From NCBI RefSeq assembly GCF_013407855.1, contig NZ_JACBZH010000001.1, positions 4,092,001 to 4,156,000 of the forward strand: a stretch of 64,000 nucleotides of DNA, given 5' to 3'. This DNA is from Actinopolymorpha rutila. GTDB lineage: Bacteria > Actinomycetota > Actinomycetes > Propionibacteriales > Actinopolymorphaceae. Under the pieces are notes generated by a model that ran no database searches, was not told the DNA's origin, and was given only the letters and a program-made list of their open reading frames with translations. A program made the position numbers and the translations under genes. Below are positions 30,235-63,720 of the stretch, in pieces (position 1 is the first letter of the stretch; the number at the start of each line of letters is the position of its first letter).

Positions 30235-30311
30235 GCGCCCGTAGCTCAGCGGATAGAGCACCGGACTTCTAATCCGGGTTGTCGGAGGTTCGAATCCTCC
30301 CGGGCGCACCA
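30235..30311 (+). tRNA. tRNA-Arg (anticodon UCU)
   Basis: The acceptor GCGCCCG (30235-30241) pairs with CGGGCGC (30301-30307). Discriminator A and an encoded CCA follow (30309-30311). The anticodon stem CCGGA/TCCGG encloses loop CTTCTAA with anticodon TCT at 30268-30270. The T arm reads CGGAGGTTCGAATCCTCCG. The D loop contains AGCTCAGCGGATAGAG. Its 3' 45 nt recur three times downstream, marking it as an integration site. Confidence 0.95.
30266..30310 (+). repeat. attachment-site core, copy 1 (within tRNA-Arg)
   Basis: The 45 nt from the anticodon loop to the 3' end of tRNA-Arg form the reference copy of the direct repeat found at 32968, 42035 and 63659. The homology runs on for ~20 nt past the tRNA as tctgacctgc. 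Confidence 0.85.
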
Positions 30312-32865: not shown

Positions 32866-33040
32866 CGGGGTGCCGGACGGGGTGCGAAACGACGTCCACC
32901 ACTGCTCGCCGAGGGGCTGGGGAGGGTAAAGATGCAGGTGAGGGCGCTGTAGACGCTGCGTGTGATTCTTCTAGTCCGGGTTGTCGGAGGTTCGAATCCT
33001 CCCGGGACACTCCCGGGCGCACCCGCTCTGATCTGCGGAT
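32866..33040 (+). repeat. attachment repeat block, copy 2 (arm plus core)
   Basis: An arm (ggggtgcc..gtgcgaaac..tgctcgccgaggggctgg..gtgagggcgctgtaga) is followed by the tRNA-derived core at 32968-33019 (cttctagtccgggttgtcgg...). The core has one A-to-G change and a ~10-bp internal duplication (cccgggacactcccgggcgc). It lacks the 5' half of the tRNA, so it is not a functional tRNA gene. Confidence 0.85.
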
Positions 33041-41920: not shown

Positions 41921-42095
41921 CGGGGTGCGGGATGGGGTGCGAAATGCCGTCTGCCGCTGTTCGCCATGGGGCTGGAGGGGGTGATCTTGGTGGTAAAGCT
42001 GCTGGTGAGGGCGTTGTAGACGCTGCGTGTGATTCTTCTAATCCGGGTTGTCGGAGGTTCGAATCCTCCCGGGCGCACCCGCTCTGACCTGCGGA
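41921..42095 (+). repeat. attachment repeat block, copy 3 (arm plus core)
   Basis: The arm (41921-42034) contains gtgatcttggtggtaaagct and gtgagggcgttgtagacgct. The core 42035-42079 matches the 3' 45 nt of tRNA-Arg(UCU) exactly, and tctgacctgcgg follows. Most of the 675-bp gap 41732-42406 is this block and non-coding flank. Confidence 0.9.
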
Positions 42096-48551: not shown

Positions 48552-49640
48552 CTAGCTCGGCCCGCAGACGACATCAGCGGCCATACGAGCGCCTGCCCGA
48601 CACCGACATGGCTCACTACCCACCACGCTGGCTGCGAAGCGACGAAGGCAGGAGGGGATCATGGCAGCCGGTACTGGGGCCCAAACGTCCATCCAGGGAC
48701 CGGGCACGTCACCTGGCGGTTGGCGCGGTTCGGGTGGCTGGCGGGGTGCGTCGGTGAGGGAGGTGGCGGCCCAGGTCGGGGTCTCTGGCCAGTCGGTGCA
48801 TACGCGGGTGGGCCGGTATCTGAGTGAGGGCGTCGCCGGGTTGGCTGGTCGGTCGTCTCGGCCGGCTTCGTGTCCGCATCGGGCGCCGGAGCGGGTGGAG
48901 CGAGATAGTTCGCGCAACGGAACGCCGTCGGCGTCAGGGGGCTCCGGTGGCCTGTACCCAGGGGTTCGACGCGTCTCGACGAGTTCTATCGCCACATCTC
49001 GCAGCTTGACGTTGGCCTGGGACGACACACGGACGAGCACGTTGAAGGCCTGATCCGCCGTGAACCGATATCTCTCCATCAATATGCCCTGCGCCTGCGC
49101 GATCACCGTTCTGGTATCCAAGGCGACGCTCAGTTGATCGATCCTCTGCGCACCGACGACCGCCACCGCAGCATGCGCTGCCAGCGCCTGACCCTGCTCT
49201 ACGTCATCCCTGCCGAACGCATTGCGGGAGCGGGCGTAGAGGTTCAAAGCTCCGACGGTATGGGCGTAGGTGAACAGGCGAAGACACATCATGCTGCGGA
49301 TTCCGGTTTCCTAGGCGACACGGCTGCCCCACTGAGACCAGCGGGTGTCCGTCGCGAGATCTGGTGCGAGCACGAGCTCTTCCTTGCGGATCGCGTCAAG
49401 ACACGGCCCCTGGTCCAGCTCCTACTGCAGTTTGTCGACCCTGCGCTCCACGTCGCTGGTGGCGGCCGGGGTATATATTCGGCCGCCACGGTGCACCAGC
49501 GAGATCGCTGCCTCTTCGGCGGCGCCTACCAGGCGCACCGCCAGTCCGACAGCTTTGTCCAAGGTGGCCTGCGCGTCGGTCTCATCCTGCAGCTCTCGGG
49601 CTGCGTCCGCGATGTGGCGGGAGAGCGGACCGGTTTCCAT
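48552..49640 (-). pseudogene. GAF-ANTAR regulator with two in-frame TAG codons
   Basis: One continuous frame from ATG 49640 (METGPLSRHIADAAREL) encodes a GAF domain and then an ANTAR RNA-binding domain (TRTVIAQAQGILMERYRF..AFNVLVRVSSQANVKLRD). It is interrupted by TAG at 49424-49422 (after VDKLQ, before ELDQGPCLDAI) and TAG at 49313-49311 (after GSRVA, before ETGIRSM). Both flanks are normal GAF sequence, so each is a point nonsense change. Domain homology stops near 48953, and the frame reads into an antisense IS481 fragment to 48552, so the natural stop is lost as well. It lies 105 nt downstream of kaiC. Confidence 0.8.
48700..48905 (+). mobile_element. IS481-family transposase N-terminal remnant
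   Basis: Plus-strand translation gives ASVREVAAQVGVSGQSVHT, then VGRYLSEGVAGLAGRSSRPAS and PHRAPERVE, the helix-turn-helix head of IS481-family transposases. The catalytic part is absent. The insertion abuts the 3' end of the GAF-ANTAR pseudogene. Confidence 0.7.
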
Positions 49641-49744
49641 CGTTGCCCCACAAAGGCTTAACCGGCGCCCCCCGCCATGCCGGTCCTCCCCCTGGCGCAC
49701 CCGGATCGGAGGACCCCCATCTTGGAAGTCGTCGGGTGCGCACT

Positions 49745-51220
49745 TCACATCCCGCCCTCGTTGGGCAGGAGGTGGGCGGTGTGTGGGAGTGGGTCGCCGA
49801 TCCGCATCCCTTGTCCGGCTTCCATGGTGACCTGGCGTACGGCGGAGTCGTGGCCGGATCCACGGGTTTGCAGGATGGCGATGGCGCGCTGGATGTTGCC
49901 GGCGTGTTCGACGTAGCGGATGTTGATTCCTACGTCGGCCAGGCTTGTGCTTTCCAGCGCGATGGCGGGGGTGATGGTGGAGGTGAAGCGGCCAGATGGT
50001 GCGGATGTCAGCAACGTGGTGATCTCGCGCTCCCGTAGCACCGCGCCCAGTGCTATCACGAAGTCCAGGAGTCCTCGGGGAGTGACGATGCGCTCCAGCG
50101 CCGACAGGGTGTCGATGACCAGCCGGTTCGGCGAGAATTCTTCGACGTTCCTACGCAGGCTGAGGAAGTGGTCCTCCAGCGAGGCTGCCTCAGGGTAGAC
50201 CGAGACCACTCGCAGCAGGCCGGACTCCTCCATAGTCGTCAGGTCGAGGCCCCACCCTGCCGCACTTCGTACCAGCCGGTCACGTGGCTCGTCGTAGGTG
50301 TAGAACAAGCACCGCTCTCCGCTTGCGTAGGCGGCCCGGGCGAACATGAGTCCGGTGAGTGTCTTGCCGGCGCCGGTGGGACCGGTGAGCAAGATCACGG
50401 CATCTTTGAAGACGCCTCCCTCGCACATCTGGTCCAAGTCGGGTGTCCCTGTCGAAACCCGGACTGCGGACGCCTCCTCGCGGGGCGCCAGGAAAGCGAG
50501 CGGGATGATCACCAGACCTTCGCCCGGGTCGATGGTGAACAGCCACTCCCCCGTCCGGTGCCGGGCACCGCGGAACTTCACGATCTCGATCGTGCGGCGA
50601 CGCCGCTCGGCATGCAGCAGGTTTCGCAGAACGATCACGTTGTCCACGACGTACTCCTCGGTGCCGAGAAGAGAAACCCCGTCGTGTTCCTCCCGCCGCT
50701 CGGCTGTAAGGACCGACGTGACATCGAGTTCCTTCAAGCTGGACACGAACCGCAGAAGTTCTCCCCGTACGGTCGCCACATCCGGATACCTGGCCAGGAT
50801 CGCCCCGATGGAGTCCAGCGAAACGCGGGCGGCGCTGATCCGTCGAATGGCGCTGGACACGCGGCTGACCAGGGCGGCGTAGTTGTAGGTGCCGGACGTG
50901 ACTGTTTCGGTCGCGAGATGATCGGAGCCGTCGACGAAGGCCCACAAGCCCTCCCGCTCCCACTCATCGATCGGGAAGCCGAACCTCCTGGCGTTCCGGC
51001 GGATGTCCTCGGCCTTCTCCTCGAACGTCACGTACACACCTGGCTGGGAGTAGTCGGCCACGCCGCGGGCCAGGAACTCGATCGCGAACAACGTCTTCCC
51101 GGTACCTGTCGTGCCGGTGACCAGGGTGGAACTGCCGCGCGGCAGACCTCCAAGGGCGATCGGATCCAGACCGCTGATCCCCGTAGGGACTTTCTCGGCG
51201 GGTTCACTGTCAATTGTCAC
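49745..51220 (-). CDS. kaiC: KaiC-family ATPase
   Basis: A 491-residue double-RecA protein; GTG 51220 has AAAGGAGG 8 nt upstream. In CI, Walker A is GTTGTGKT (36-43) and the catalytic Glu pair is TFEE (67-68). In CII, Walker A is GPTGAGKT (280-287); the Glu pair position reads YDEP (Asp310-Glu311). Aligning RYVEH to the cyanobacterial QYVEI places Thr425-Ser426 at the autophosphorylation pair Ser431-Thr432, so both phosphorylatable residues are kept in reversed order. KaiC hydrolyses ATP and autophosphorylates as a hexamer. It overlaps kaiB by 11 nt; no kaiA is present. Confidence 0.92.
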   Translation of the reverse strand: MTIDSEPAEKVPTGISGLDPIALGGLPRGSSTLVTGTTGTGKTLFAIEFLARGVADYSQPGVYVTFEEKAEDIRRNARRFGFPIDEWEREGLWAFVDGSDHLATETVTSGTYNYAALVSRVSSAIRRISAARVSLDSIGAILARYPDVATVRGELLRFVSSLKELDVTSVLTAERREEHDGVSLLGTEEYVVDNVIVLRNLLHAERRRRTIEIVKFRGARHRTGEWLFTIDPGEGLVIIPLAFLAPREEASAVRVSTGTPDLDQMCEGGVFKDAVILLTGPTGAGKTLTGLMFARAAYASGERCLFYTYDEPRDRLVRSAAGWGLDLTTMEESGLLRVVSVYPEAASLEDHFLSLRRNVEEFSPNRLVIDTLSALERIVTPRGLLDFVIALGAVLREREITTLLTSAPSGRFTSTITPAIALESTSLADVGINIRYVEHAGNIQRAIAILQTRGSGHDSAVRQVTMEAGQGMRIGDPLPHTAHLLPNEGGM

Positions 51221-51554
51221 CGGACCGCCTCCTTTCCAGCGGGTCAAGCGGTGCGGGGAACCCGAGCGCCGCGGCCGTCCGCGCGTCGTCCGACAGGTCG
51301 CCGATCACCCGGAACTGAGGCAGTGGCTGGGTGCGCACAACGGTCGGCGTCACGAAGATCCCGAACTCCTCAGCAAGCTCAGGGTCTTCTCCCACGTCCA
51401 CGACCTCAAGGCGGTACTGGCCGCCGACAAGTTCATCGCACAGCCTGCGCAGATGGGTCGCAGCCCGCCTGGAGGACTCGTCCGGACCAAAGACGAACAA
51501 CGTCAGTACGTACGGTGTCCAGGGAGGGAGCGCGTCCTTGGTGTCCTCATTCAC
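51210..51554 (-). CDS. kaiB: KaiB-family protein
   Basis: About 114 residues from GTG 51554; the SD is weak, so the start is provisional. The thioredoxin-like KaiB fold shows YVLTLFVFGPDESSRRA, then YRLEVVDVGEDPELAEEFGI, the cis-Pro region FVTPTVVRTQPLPQ and RVIGDLSD. The RVIGDLSD motif is characteristic of KaiB. The gene overlaps kaiC, so the two are coupled. In cyanobacteria KaiB binds phosphorylated KaiC; here, without KaiA, it may work in an hourglass-type or stress circuit. Confidence 0.88.
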   Translation of the reverse strand: MNEDTKDALPPWTPYVLTLFVFGPDESSRRAATHLRRLCDELVGGQYRLEVVDVGEDPELAEEFGIFVTPTVVRTQPLPQFRVIGDLSDDARTAAALGFPAPLDPLERRRSGDN

Positions 51555-52470
51555 AGGCTTTGTCCCATCGGTGCCTGCCCGCGGATTCTGGCCTCCTCCG
51601 ACGAGTGAGGGGACTCCCACAAATCTATTCCGAGGGCTGGCAGATGGGGACAGCTTCCGCTCACGCTGAAGGCTCCGACGGCGCGGTTGAGCCAGCCGCG
51701 TATTGGGAACGGGGCAGACAGGTTGGCCAGCTCCCCAACGTCCCTGTCCGGCGGAGGGTCCTCCGACGCGAAGGCCCTCCGCCACGCTAAGCCGGGCGCA
51801 AATTGCCCGGAGAGATCTGAGCAAAAGTCCTGCGGCCAGGCCGGTTTGGCCGTACGGTTGCCCCCTTTGGCACCTCGAACCACCGGGATGCAGTCCGAGA
51901 GCAGAGCCGGAACCTTCGCTCAGGGCCTGGACCTCGACCCGTCATGGACTTCTGATGTCCGTCCACATTGCCTTCCCCCGTGTGCATCTCCAGCCGCCGG
52001 GCGACTACCTCAGTAGCTGTACCGGTGAGGAGAAATGGGCGTGCGCCCCGTCCGCCATGGCGTCGCCCAGCTGTTGCAGGGCGACGCCATACCCGTCGAC
52101 GTCCGCCAGGAGCCCGCCGATTACAGCAGGGCTGCCGAGTTGTCGCGACAGGCCGACGAGGCCATCAAAGGTCTTGACTACGTCGGAGCACTGCGGCCTG
52201 CCGGTTGCGCGCGGCCGCACTGCTCGGCATGTGCAGGATCGTCGGCCGAACCATCGGAATCGACACCCCCCGGTGGCAGCAGGCCGGTGATCTGCCACGT
52301 CTGTGACTGGACGCCGTAGTAGCGTGGGACGGCCGCCGCGGACTGCAGGGTGTGTGATGCCGGTCAGGATCGAGTCCGTGGCCGGCATCGCAAGGTGTGC
52401 GTCATGCCATCTCGGGTCGGCAGGGGCAGACGACAGTTGCTGGCGTTTTTGTACTTCGCTGCTGTCGGAC
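51555..52470. other. kaiB upstream region with one possible gene remnant
   Basis: No intact gene is supported in ~0.9 kb. On the minus strand 52005 to ~52190 a GC3-biased stretch reads VVKTFDGLVGLSRQLGSP..VIGGLLADVDGYGVAL before a TAG. It looks like the end of a real protein, but the 5' part has no coding character. The kaiBC promoter should lie here; I saw no clear -10/-35. Confidence 0.4.
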
Positions 52471-53082
52471 CTATTCATCGGTGAGTGGTGAGCTGTGCCA
52501 CTTCCAGGTGGGCCCTACAGGTGTTAGCCCTGGCAGCGGGGTGCGACCGGTGGCCCATCTCAGAGCTGACCAGGGATCGACGTTCGTAACGTCGGCTGCC
52601 TCGAGTTCAGCATGGCGGTCGGGGAACATCCTGGCGAGGACCCAAGCACAGGTGTCTGCGGGGGGTTGGAACGGCAGATTGAGCCCTGTCGCGATGTCTC
52701 CGGTGTGGACGAGCAACTCGATGCATCCCATACCCGCCGTCCCCTCAGCGTCTGCCGCGCCGAAGGGATGAAAGCCGCGATCGGTTGGCTCCGCGCCTCG
52801 AACCACAGCGGATAGAAGATGACCGCTCACCTCGAGCAGTTCGAGCACGTCCGACGGCGTTGCGTCCTCCAGGGCTCGGGAGAAGAAGCTCACGTAGTGC
52901 GTCTGCGTCATACTCGCGAGCTGGAGCGCGTACAGCTGCATGCAGTGTGCGGTGTGATCGGCGGTGAACCGGCAGGTCCAATCCAGGGGCCCGGCCGTTC
53001 TCTGCCAGTCTTCGATCGTTCCCTGTTGTAGGGCGGCGACGGCGCTGCCGATTGCCCGGTCGAGATGATCGGTTGCCTCCAC
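52471..53082 (-). CDS. maleylpyruvate-isomerase-like mycothiol-dependent protein (DinB fold)
   Basis: A 203-residue protein. GTG 53082 has GGAGAG 6 nt upstream. The fold shows DHLDRAIGSAVAAL..DWTCRFTADHTAHCMQLYALQ (first metal His), a central helix, and MGCIELLVHTGDIATGL with the E..H..D pattern of the mycothiol-dependent maleylpyruvate isomerase family. Members use mycothiol for isomerisation or detoxification. It lies between kaiBC and the MASE1 gene on the same strand. Confidence 0.75.
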   Translation of the reverse strand: MEATDHLDRAIGSAVAALQQGTIEDWQRTAGPLDWTCRFTADHTAHCMQLYALQLASMTQTHYVSFFSRALEDATPSDVLELLEVSGHLLSAVVRGAEPTDRGFHPFGAADAEGTAGMGCIELLVHTGDIATGLNLPFQPPADTCAWVLARMFPDRHAELEAADVTNVDPWSALRWATGRTPLPGLTPVGPTWKWHSSPLTDE

Positions 53083-53196: not shown

Positions 53197-54381
53197 CTAT
53201 CTGTGGGGATGGCCACCGTGACCACGAGCTGCTTGGCTGGCGGCCGGTCGGCGACGAGCGGCCCGCCGGCCCGCCGGCCCGCCGGCCCGCCGGCCCGCCG
53301 GCCCGCCGGCCCGCCGGCCAACAGCATGGTCAGTGTCCGGCTCTCCAAGGAGATGGCCGCTCTGTTCGTGTGTCCTGTGCGCGTTCTGCCCAATGCCCGA
53401 GGATGTTTGTTCTGTCGGCCGCATCGCTTGATCAAGGTGGTTGATGACCTCTCCGAGTCGGCTGCACGTCCGTTCGAGTTCTGCGCGCGATCGCTGGCGC
53501 TCGACGAGAGCTACGGAGAGGAGCAGTGCGACCAGCGCAACCGAGCCGTTGAACATTTGGAGGATCACCATTCTCTCGGCCAGGCTGTGCCCGGCGAAGA
53601 CCCCTGTCCCGCGCAGGGCAGCGGTGATGGCCACGGTCGAGGCGAGTAGTCCGACGGGTGCGGCCCCGGGAAGGTGGAACCGCCACGCCACCCAGACGAT
53701 CAGCGGGAAAGTGAGGAACAGGATCCCGAACACCGCTTCGGTGATGATGACGAGCACGAAGGTGACCGCGAGCAAGGCAATAATCTCGGTCGATTTCAAC
53801 GTATCGACGTCGCGTGTCCATGGGAGCTTCACGAGGGTAAGCAGCAGGGGCGTAACCAGCAGGACACCCATCGCGTCACCGGTCCACCAGGTCAACCACG
53901 TCGCGAGGAAGTCGCTAGCCCGTATGTCACCCCCGAGCATGAGCAGCGTGGTTCCGATGGTGGAACTGATGAGCATCGCACCGAAAGCGGCGAGGAACAC
54001 CAGCGCAAGCGCGTCTTTCAGCCGGTCGAGTTCGGTCCGGAAGTGGATCTTGCGCAGTGCCCAGTACGCGCACGGGCAGGCGAGGGTGGTTCCGATCGCG
54101 GTGGGAATGTTCGCAGCTGGAGGGCTTGTGAACCCGTTGGCCGCCATCGAGCCCAGCATGATCCCGGGCCACATCCAAAACCCGAGGAGCAGGAGGGCAG
54201 CCAACCCGAGGCCGGTGGGCGGCCAGATGGGGCTGGCCTCCCCTGGCTCCACCCCCACCAGGAGCCCGAGTCGTGCCGTCAGCAACGAGGTGACGGCGAG
54301 CCCAAGGTTCAGCGCACCGACCACCAGGGAGCGTCGGAGCCTGCGGGAATCCCCAATACGACTTGACGCTAGCTCGGACAC
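53197..54381 (-). CDS. MASE1-domain sensor with repeat-encoded tail
   Basis: A 394-residue protein from GTG 54381, with about eight to nine helices in the first 300 residues. ARLGLLVGVEPGEASPIWPPTGLGLAALLLLG is the MASE1 signature, and LATWLTWWTGDAMGVLLVTPLLL the later conserved helix. A short coiled segment (VERQRSRAELERTCSRLGEVINHLD) follows. There is no kinase, GGDEF or SpoIIE output domain. The tail (~350-394) is encoded by an 8-bp tandem repeat, read as GRRAGGPA repeats. A different tail becomes in-frame if the repeat number changes by one. Confidence 0.8.
   Translation of the reverse strand: MSELASSRIGDSRRLRRSLVVGALNLGLAVTSLLTARLGLLVGVEPGEASPIWPPTGLGLAALLLLGFWMWPGIMLGSMAANGFTSPPAANIPTAIGTTLACPCAYWALRKIHFRTELDRLKDALALVFLAAFGAMLISSTIGTTLLMLGGDIRASDFLATWLTWWTGDAMGVLLVTPLLLTLVKLPWTRDVDTLKSTEIIALLAVTFVLVIITEAVFGILFLTFPLIVWVAWRFHLPGAAPVGLLASTVAITAALRGTGVFAGHSLAERMVILQMFNGSVALVALLLSVALVERQRSRAELERTCSRLGEVINHLDQAMRPTEQTSSGIGQNAHRTHEQSGHLLGEPDTDHAVGRRAGGPAGRRAGGPAGRRAARRRPAASQAARGHGGHPHR
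53261..53319. repeat. 8-bp tandem repeat, seven GCCCGCCG units
   Basis: Seven perfect copies of gcccgccg plus gcc. The unit is not a multiple of three and lies inside the MASE1 reading frame, so slippage would change the C-terminal tail. Confidence 0.95.
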
Positions 54382-54460: not shown

Positions 54461-55600
54461 TCTAGTTGTTGTGGCTCATGAGGTTGTTGACGGTAGCCAG
54501 GGTGTGAACGAGGGGTAGATCGCCCGACGGCAGGATGGAAGTGCGACCAACCGTCCTGCTCACCGAAAGGGATCTACCCCTCGTGTCCCACGCTAGCGCC
54601 CCGTTGACTCCTGCCGGCCGGCTGCGTCTTGTTACCCGGTGCCAGACCCGTCCGATCGCACACGTGGCTGCGGAGGCCGGTGTGTCACGTCAGTGCCTGT
54701 CGAGATGGGTGAACCGCTACCGGTCCAGCGGCGACGCCGGCCTGCTCGACCGCTCCTCGGCCCCGCATTCCTCCCCGTCACAGACACCGGATGAGGTGGT
54801 GGAGCTGATCGAGAGCTGGCGGCGAGAGCACAAGTGGTCCGCCCGCACGATCGCCGCCGAGCTCACCCACCGCGGCCACCGGGTCTCGGTCGCCACCGTA
54901 GGCCGGTGGCTGGTCCGCCTGGGCATCAACCGGCGCCGTGACCTGGACCCGTCCGGTGCGTCGAACCGGCGGCCGGAGCGGATCACTGCCCGCTATCCGG
55001 GGCACATGGTGCACCTGGATGTGAAGAAGGTCGGCCGGATCCCCGATGGTGGCGGCTGGCGGGCCCACGGGCGCGGCAGTGACGCCGACCGGGCCGCCCA
55101 ACGCGCCAAAGCCAAGAAGAAGGGTGGTGCCAAGGCGGGCTACGTCTACCTGCACTCAGCCGTCGACGGGTTCTCCCGGCTGGCCTACACCGAGCACCTA
55201 ACCGATGAGACCGCCAAGACGACCATCGGCTTCTTCCACCGGGCACGAGCGTTCTTCGCAGCCCACGGCATCGTCCGGATCACTCGCCTGGTCACCGACA
55301 ATGGTGCGAACTACCGGGCCGGGGCGTTCGTGCGCACAGCGACAGCCTTCGCCTCGCGCCACCAGCGCACCCGTCCCTACACACCCCGCCACAACGGCAA
55401 GGCCGAGCGCTACCAGCGCACCCTGGCTGAGGAACTCCTCTACGCCCGCGTGTGGACCAGCGAAGGCCAACGCGCACGAGCGATCCAGGTGTGGAACATC
55501 CACTACAACTACCATCGAGCCCACACCGCCGCCGGCGACCAACCACCCGCCTCACGCCTCCACCAGACCGTCACCAACGTCACGACCCGCAACATCTAGT
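54461..55600 (+). mobile_element. complete IS481-type insertion sequence with 6-bp target duplication
   Basis: The element runs 54467-55594 (1128 bp). The left end TGTTGTGGCTCATGAGGTTG matches the complement of the right end TGTTGCGGGTCGTGACGTTG over ~28 bp with a few mismatches. TCTAGT flanks both sides (54461-54466 and 55595-55600), matching the NCTAGN target duplication described for IS481. Perfect duplications suggest a recent insertion. Confidence 0.85.
54583..55599 (+). CDS. IS481-family DDE transposase
   Basis: About 338 residues from GTG 54583 (reading SHASAPLTPAGRLRLVTRC); the frame is open further upstream to 54535. The helix-turn-helix is AHVAAEAGVSRQCLSRWVNRYR. A second helical region is WSARTIAAELTHRGHRVSVATVGRWL. 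The catalytic DDE residues are in MVHLDVKKVG, LVTDNGANYR and NGKAERYQRTLAEEL. The stop codon TAG (55597-55599) is not in the element but in the duplicated target CTAG, so the coding frame is closed only after insertion. Confidence 0.9.
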   Translation: MSHASAPLTPAGRLRLVTRCQTRPIAHVAAEAGVSRQCLSRWVNRYRSSGDAGLLDRSSAPHSSPSQTPDEVVELIESWRREHKWSARTIAAELTHRGHRVSVATVGRWLVRLGINRRRDLDPSGASNRRPERITARYPGHMVHLDVKKVGRIPDGGGWRAHGRGSDADRAAQRAKAKKKGGAKAGYVYLHSAVDGFSRLAYTEHLTDETAKTTIGFFHRARAFFAAHGIVRITRLVTDNGANYRAGAFVRTATAFASRHQRTRPYTPRHNGKAERYQRTLAEELLYARVWTSEGQRARAIQVWNIHYNYHRAHTAAGDQPPASRLHQTVTNVTTRNI

Positions 55601-63544: not shown

Positions 63545-63720
63545 CGGGGTGCGGGACTGGGTGCGAAACGCCGTCTGCCAGTGCTCGCCAAGGGGCTGGT
63601 GAGGGTGATCTTGGTGGTAAAGCTGCTGGTGAGGGCGGTGTAGAAGATGCGTGTGATTCTTCTAATCCGATGGTCGGAGGTTCGAATCCTCCCGGGCGCA
63701 CTCTGACCTGCGAATATGCA
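63545..63720 (+). repeat. attachment repeat block, copy 4 (arm plus core)
   Basis: The arm is nearly identical to the one at 41921, including gtgatcttggtggtaaagct. The core 63659-63701 reads cttctaatccgatggtcgga... and differs from the tRNA only where gggttg has become atgg. It is followed by tctgacctgcgaatatgca, which matches the sequence just 3' of the tRNA-Arg gene. Confidence 0.85.

Follow-up and report, generated by a model that had tools for sequence, protein, structure and literature searches.

The window analysed here, a 64,000-nucleotide stretch of the Actinopolymorpha rutila genome, lies in a single 6.95-Mb contig and carries a kaiB-kaiC pair, given below with the KaiC residues on which most of the argument turns.

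49745..51220, minus strand: kaiC, 491 residues, GTG start at 51220 and stop at 49745, with CI and CII RecA-like domains (PF06745)
51210..51554, minus strand: kaiB, 114 residues, GTG start at 51554 (PF07689, 72.3 bits)
51017..51022, minus strand: CI catalytic pair Glu67-Glu68 (E77-E78 of S. elongatus), in a TFEE motif, from sequence and alignment
50288..50293, minus strand: Asp310-Glu311 of CII, in the position of the catalytic pair E318-E319, from sequence and alignment
49943..49948, minus strand: Thr425-Ser426, at the place of the phosphosites S431-T432, from sequence and alignment

Both frames are uninterrupted, and the stop end of kaiB overlaps the start of kaiC by 11 nt (51210-51220), as the initial annotation of this DNA had stated. 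The Pfam KaiC match (335 bits) falls in two stretches that cover both halves of the protein, and the broad NCBIfam KaiC model PRK09302.1 is passed with 506.8 bits against a cut-off of 408; having both RecA-like domains, the CI Walker A motif and a catalytic Glu pair, the protein belongs to the two-domain KaiC family. The KaiB scored well above its Pfam cut-off (72.3 bits against 27) and could be aligned with 8fwj and 4kso. The kaiBC pair is real. The cyanobacterial clock equivalogs gave scores below their cut-offs, with 419 bits for circ_KaiC (TIGR02655; cut-off 546) and 55.7 bits for circ_KaiB (cut-off 145.3). An AlphaFold model of the KaiC built from a 45-row alignment had a mean pLDDT of 84.7 and a pTM of 0.72, and Foldseek matched it throughout to KaiC chains at a TM of ~0.9 (0.90-0.91 to the S. 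elongatus chains); the model was weakest in the phosphosite loop, where residues 410-420 had pLDDT values below 50. Scans of 49000-52600 gave nothing promoter-like and a single terminator-like site, where 1.1 were expected.

A search with PF07688 found no KaiA in any of six Actinopolymorpha genomes while matching the S. elongatus positive control, which bears out the earlier description of kaiBC without kaiA. By comparison, kaiB is present in all six genomes, with nine kaiBC pairs in total. Three of these pairs are in the A. rutila genome; the two beyond the window are also intact and were absent from the initial annotation. Histidine-kinase ATPase domains matched 47 times in the genome and not once in the window, in agreement with the claim that the window holds no SasA-like output. 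More widely, of 396 genomes drawn across the phylum, 22 had KaiB matches above the Pfam threshold (53 at an E-value of 0.001 or better, many of these matches being weak and partial), and 13 of 394 genomes drawn across the class had a full-length KaiC either of this type or related to it (E-value of 1e-60 or less); two of the 13 (G000 and G706) were placed by the tree described below in the clade of the window KaiC.

The assignment of Thr425-Ser426 to the place of Ser431-Thr432 is consistent between a pairwise phmmer alignment to 8zn5/8jon and two MAFFT alignments, and the alignment is free of gaps from the phosphosite to Asp435. At position T426 the residue assigned to the window KaiC varies with the placement of gaps, being Ile in the multiple alignment and Thr in the phmmer pair. 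The residues named in the initial annotation, i.e., the TFEE pair in CI, the Asp-Glu pair in CII and a Thr-Ser pair at the phosphosite, are therefore as described; where a clock KaiC has Ser431-Thr432 and a catalytic Glu318, the window KaiC has Thr-Ser and Asp. What had been made of these residues, namely that a phosphorylatable pair was kept in reversed order, was not supported by comparison with relatives, and the CII Asp-Glu proved to be no local oddity.

These relatives were collected by scanning named genomes with a nine-row alignment (A1) of the KaiCs of the genus, and the best 80 of 554 confirmed loci were kept; a single-protein scan of genome contigs with the window KaiC had given 36 pattern matches and no confirmed relatives. 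In a tree of 65 KaiCs, built with the trait columns removed, the window KaiC fell within a clade of 31 actinomycete KaiCs with a bootstrap of 100 (not fully settled) and an SH-aLRT of 99. Neither the tree nor the clade counts included L086 (from the same genome as L022), L119 (a partial KaiC) or L148-L157 (longer copies of loci already counted), and only every third of the non-actinomycete KaiCs L051-L107 entered the tree. The sister of the clade (100/99) consists of two proteins from Actinomycetota metagenome-assembled genomes (MAGs) with the ordinary Ser-Thr and Glu-Glu. For residue counts we used a comparison set of 61 KaiCs from the same scan, representing 59 loci (two with two kaiC each), among which L048 and L050 are Actinomycetota MAGs. 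A plasmid-borne origin of the clade was considered and found no support, the only plasmid records being three, all non-actinomycete and 42-44% identical.

At positions 431-432 (S. elongatus numbering) all 61 comparison KaiCs keep both phosphosites (Ser-Thr in 55, Ser-Ser in 6), and all 61 have Glu-Glu as the CII pair. The clade, in contrast, has Ala-Ser in 14 members, Ala-Gly in five, two each of Ala-Arg, Asp-Ser, Thr-Ser and Ser-Ser, and single cases of Asn-Ser, Ala-Ala, Thr-Gly and Ala-Asn, so that position 431 is Ala in 23/31 and position 432 is Ser in 21/31. The Actinopolymorpha copy at L019 is one of those with Ala-Ser, and Streptosporangium amethystogenes (L034) one of those with Ala-Gly. 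Counted as Ser or Thr at the two sites, nine members have none, 18 have one and four, including the window KaiC, have two; put differently, 27 of the 31 lack the full pair of hydroxyl residues. The CII catalytic pair of the clade is Asp-Glu in 25, Asp-Gly in three, and Asp-Asp, Asp-Val and Glu-Glu in one each, making Asp318 (30/31) a rule of the clade. Lys457 is replaced by Gln in 30/31 and His429 by Glu in 22/31, and the loop 415-430 is rebuilt in the multiple alignment. Kept in all 31 are the Walker A residues Lys294 and Thr295, Asp378, Arg459 and Asp435, while the CI catalytic pair E77-E78 is Glu-Glu in 27 and Asp-Glu in four. Among columns at least 93% conserved in the comparison set, 10 of 84 in CI and 25 of 97 in CII are kept in fewer than half of the clade (Fisher p 0.023, a moderate contrast between columns that are not independent). 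The CII phospho-switch is thus eroded across this actinomycete clade, with the nucleotide-binding residues and the CI pair kept.

Because Thr at 431 is a minority state (3/31: the window KaiC, Saccharopolyspora elongata and Actinopolymorpha pittospori), the Thr-Ser of the window KaiC is a variant of the eroded site and not a mirrored canonical pair. The same Thr-Ser occurs in Saccharopolyspora elongata, and the neighbours of the window KaiC in its own subclade have Ala-Ser (three) and Thr-Gly (one). A remnant of the orthologous kaiC in the sister species G004 (91% identical) also carries Thr-Ser, which rules out a sequencing slip or a very recent change; since this dead orthologue retains the pair, Thr-Ser must date back to the split from G004 or earlier. 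In S. elongatus, Glu318 is the catalytic base that activates Thr432 and Ser431, Lys457 and Arg459 keep the phosphates of ATP in place, and the rhythm is abolished by E318D (PMC2777353); because of this last effect, a canonical two-site phosphorylation cycle is unlikely in the window KaiC.

The survey of actinomycete KaiBC neighbours that had been proposed showed two constant partners. Directly upstream of kaiC is kaiB in 31/31 clade members, and directly downstream is a PAS-sensor gene in 21 of the 22 clade loci outside Actinopolymorpha. A PAS-kinase profile, itself built from 14 of the matching loci, matched all 20 named loci L028-L047 and also L121, and found nothing in the ~1.4 kb downstream of kaiC at L114. 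All nine clade members without Ser or Thr at either site have both kaiB and the PAS gene. Pfam searches of five of the downstream PAS proteins gave PAS-HisKA-HATPase_c for L031, L028 and L039, and a terminal SpoIIE phosphatase domain for the two Streptomyces proteins (L032:6472-7572 and L038:2261-3355); since these five share PAS and vary in what follows it, PAS is the domain that stays constant, and it is the output module that changes. Upstream, a divergent response regulator was matched by profile at 11 of the 20 named loci, some of the stretches ending at contig ends, and the one at L034 is Response_reg plus GerE by Pfam.

Within Actinopolymorpha, a sensor protein lies downstream of four of the nine kaiBC pairs and none lies downstream of the other five, the window pair among them. 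At L018, L021 and L024 it is a ~562-residue protein in which Pfam found GAF domains only (L018 and L021 scanned), and at L020 it is a PAS-GAF protein with HisKA_3 below threshold. The C-terminus of the GAF protein (L018:8547-10235 and L021:9218-10915) aligns with a histidine-kinase-like region in which Pfam reports no kinase domain; this large protein behind the second Actinopolymorpha kaiBC is possibly a pseudokinase. A search of Actinopolymorpha for a copy of the PAS kinase in trans gave general kinase matches only, except for the PAS part in the kaiBC locus of G001 itself.

The surroundings of the window pair are those of an island next to a tRNA gene.

30235..30311, plus strand: tRNA-Arg(TCT), the likely attachment gene of the island
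32968-33006: further partial copy of the tRNA-Arg 3' end
42035..42079, plus strand: exact 45-bp copy of the 3' part of tRNA-Arg, to the left of kaiBC
48552..49640, minus strand: GAF-ANTAR pseudogene downstream of kaiC, with two in-frame TAG codons, from a single-frame reading
48661..49053, plus strand: open reading frame with an IS481-type transposase fragment, overlapping the end of the GAF-ANTAR frame
53197-54381, minus strand: MASE1 sensor frame with no output domain
54535..55599, plus strand: IS481-type transposase
63673..63720, plus strand: imperfect copy (~48 bp, 92%) of the tRNA-Arg 3' end, to the right of kaiBC

The kaiBC pair lies between the tRNA-Arg 3'-end repeats at 42035 and 63673, as expected of the island that had been claimed. 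Copies of this 3' end also occur downstream of the window and in several congeners, suggesting that elements have stacked up at an integration hot spot common to the genus. The tyrosine integrase family PF00589 has 10 matches in the genome and none in the window; the G+C content is mostly 0.70-0.75 to the left of the tRNA and mostly 0.62-0.69 to its right; and the distance from the ssb-tRNA anchor is 20 kb to kaiBC in the window and 79 kb to the G004 remnant, with side and orientation unchanged between the two. Together with the tRNA-Arg repeats these features support an old, eroded integration hot spot. The MASE1 frame looks like a truncated gene, its tail crossing an 8-bp repeat of 7.6 copies (53259-53319).

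The GAF-ANTAR gene has a stop-free copy in G004 that is 97% identical in protein. Readthrough of the two TAG codons is not favoured; because the frame is otherwise intact and so similar to the stop-free copy, recent loss of the gene is simpler. With this gene broken and the MASE1 frame lacking an output domain, the functional link to these neighbours that had been suggested is weak; at other loci it is the PAS-sensor gene that is constant, and KaiBC without KaiA is described as ordinary outside cyanobacteria (PMC5520375). In G004 it is the orthologous kaiBC that is broken, its kaiB and first ~313 kaiC codons being lost (window 50282-51731 has no counterpart there, and the flanks abut) and the remainder of kaiC frameshifted, so that one locus has decayed reciprocally in the two species. 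A second truncated KaiC in G004 (L144:9001-9996; 307 residues matched, 74% identical to the window KaiC) adjoins a putative transposase gene, so labelled from reading its translation.

Such decay raises the possibility that the window copy is itself simply dying, i.e., that it is a redundant, non-functional third kaiBC in an island and that its residues mean nothing. The broken adjoining gene, the IS481 remnants, the two dead kaiC in G004 and the two other intact pairs in the genome all fit this explanation. The intact kaiC and kaiB frames argue against it, however, as does a dN/dS of ~0.25 between the window copy and its nearest paralogue L019, which is much the same as the 0.24 between L019 and L023. 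Of the 89 columns at which the other 30 clade members do not vary, two have an odd residue in the window KaiC, which is no excess, its branch in the tree is of similar length to those of its sisters, and the phosphosite erosion extends over the clade and is not limited to this copy. We therefore consider a dying copy rather unlikely, if the best of the alternatives. Though intact and under constraint, the window kaiBC lacks a PAS partner, and its GAF-ANTAR neighbour is broken; it is therefore probably an orphan paralogue, and whatever activity it has would depend on shared hexamers or on a partner belonging to another copy.

Among characterized systems, the KaiBC of R. sphaeroides (KaiC2 group) resembles the window in having a kaiB-kaiC operon without kaiA, and its operon is reported to include a histidine kinase/PAS protein (PMC5520375, PMC6627678). 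Its KaiB is reported to bind the ADP-state CI ring largely regardless of phosphorylation; what decides binding is the post-hydrolysis state of CI, with phosphorylation contributing only marginally (PMC10076222). Unlike the window KaiC, the R. sphaeroides KaiC autophosphorylates at Ser413-Ser414 and has a C-terminal coiled coil of ~50 residues. The window KaiC has neither the Ser-Ser pair nor the ~50-residue C-terminal extension of the KaiC2 group; it has Thr-Ser and ends at residue 491, 33 residues after the RGSxHD motif, compared with 49-52 in the five comparison KaiCs listed, and it sits in a clade with altered CII catalytic residues. The window pair shares with S. elongatus KaiABC the two-domain KaiC fold (42% identity), the KaiB family and the CI catalytic pair, and differs in the absence of KaiA from the genus, in E318D and K457Q, in having Thr-Ser in place of Ser-Thr and in not reaching the circ_KaiC and circ_KaiB cut-offs. 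The KaiC3/KaiB3 proteins of Synechocystis and relatives are similarly KaiA-independent, paired with KaiB and found as several kaiBC per genome, but according to PMC5520375 they keep Ser-Thr (or Ser-Tyr) and the catalytic glutamates. Many myxobacterial KaiCs, like those of the clade, have one or no phosphosite at 431/432 (PMC11832031); by the same account few myxobacteria have kaiB and their KaiCs are without the B-loop for KaiB, whereas 31/31 clade KaiCs are behind kaiB.

We propose, at a probability of roughly 0.55, that this clade represents a KaiB-KaiC switch set by nucleotide state, for which two-site phosphorylation of CII has become dispensable. In the observed residue changes and pattern of retention, the parts that appear to have been dismantled are those of the CII autokinase and phospho-switch (Glu318 to Asp, Lys457 to Gln, the phosphosite loop and most phosphosites), and the parts kept are the ATPase residues of CI, nucleotide binding by CII, KaiB and, outside Actinopolymorpha, the PAS-sensor gene. 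For the wiring of the switch, we infer that KaiC would form an ATP-dependent hexamer whose CI ring slowly hydrolyses ATP, that KaiB would bind the ADP (post-hydrolysis) CI ring, and that the ATP:ADP ratio and the time elapsed could thus be read from KaiB occupancy with no need of two-site phosphorylation in CII, which itself would serve as a nucleotide-bound structural or allosteric ring. The PAS protein would then read this state and pass it to the histidine kinase, SpoIIE phosphatase or GAF protein. Since KaiB binding in R. sphaeroides depends on the CI state, a KaiBC relying on that state alone may by analogy be able to drop its phosphosites, and it is on this precedent that a CI-driven, nucleotide-responsive KaiB switch read by the PAS protein is proposed. 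We put forward the fuller version, in which a widespread actinomycete KaiB-KaiC-PAS module has given up the CII phospho-switch for a phosphorylation-independent, CI-ATPase-driven KaiB switch read by PAS and coupled to an exchangeable output (histidine kinase, SpoIIE phosphatase or GAF), more tentatively and at slightly less than even odds; against the PAS reading, five of the nine Actinopolymorpha pairs lack a PAS or other sensor neighbour, and what ties PAS to KaiBC is gene order.

Residual phosphorylation at one site is possible, given Ser432 in 21/31 and the Thr and Ser of the window KaiC; some kinases can use Asp as a base. The main biochemical rival remains a lineage that moved to Ser432 as its single phosphosite and still gates KaiB binding with it. 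Ser is found at 432 in eight of the nine Actinopolymorpha pairs, many myxobacterial KaiCs have one site, and a single Ser431 can suffice for a circadian period according to work cited in PMC11832031. On the other hand, position 432 is Gly, Arg, Asn or Ala in 10/31, in nine of these ten neither position has a hydroxyl, although kaiB and the PAS gene are retained, and the kinase residues are changed in all clade members but one; we thus find a one-site switch unlikely. Least probable, and distinctly doubtful, is the reading of the initial annotation, a canonical KaiBC hourglass with Thr425 and Ser426 autophosphorylated in order and merely swapped in side chain: the window KaiC does have hydroxyls at both positions, and Thr-Ser is preserved in the G004 remnant and recurs in Saccharopolyspora elongata, but its CII has the Asp of the arrhythmic S. 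elongatus mutant (PMC2777353) and Gln for Lys457, its loop 415-430 is rebuilt, and a two-site cycle is impossible at these positions in 27/31 relatives.

The value of the finding is in the clade and not in the order of two residues. If the nucleotide-state switch is correct, the clade would be a natural experiment in KaiBC timing or energy sensing with no need for KaiC phosphorylation, which in the best-known bacterial clock is both readout and regulator. It allows one to ask directly whether KaiBC function requires phosphorylation or whether phosphorylation was added later to a more ancient nucleotide-state switch. That phosphosites are mostly lost while KaiB and the sensor gene are usually kept suggests that a KaiB-KaiC pair can work without the CII phosphate switch. 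In the open-access literature, as distinct from subscription papers and preprints, we found no paper on actinomycete KaiBC and none on KaiB-linked KaiC without phosphosites; phosphosite-poor KaiCs as such are not new, as one-site and no-site KaiCs, mostly without KaiB, are reported from myxobacteria (PMC11832031). The clade includes genera with cultured strains (Microbispora, Streptosporangium, Herbidospora, Saccharopolyspora, Streptomyces and Actinopolymorpha), and its proteins should be amenable to the types of assay established for other KaiCs (ATPase, KaiB pull-down and phosphate).

Altered sites were also seen outside the clade, in KaiCs that were kept in the tree: L126 has Ala-Thr, L130 has Ala-Ser with Glu-Glu in CII, and L127 and L128 have Leu-Ala with Asp-Gln and Asp-Arg, respectively. 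No kaiB match was found in the stretch around kaiC at L126-L128, and L127 and L128 (genomes G653 and G641) represent a second, separate loss.
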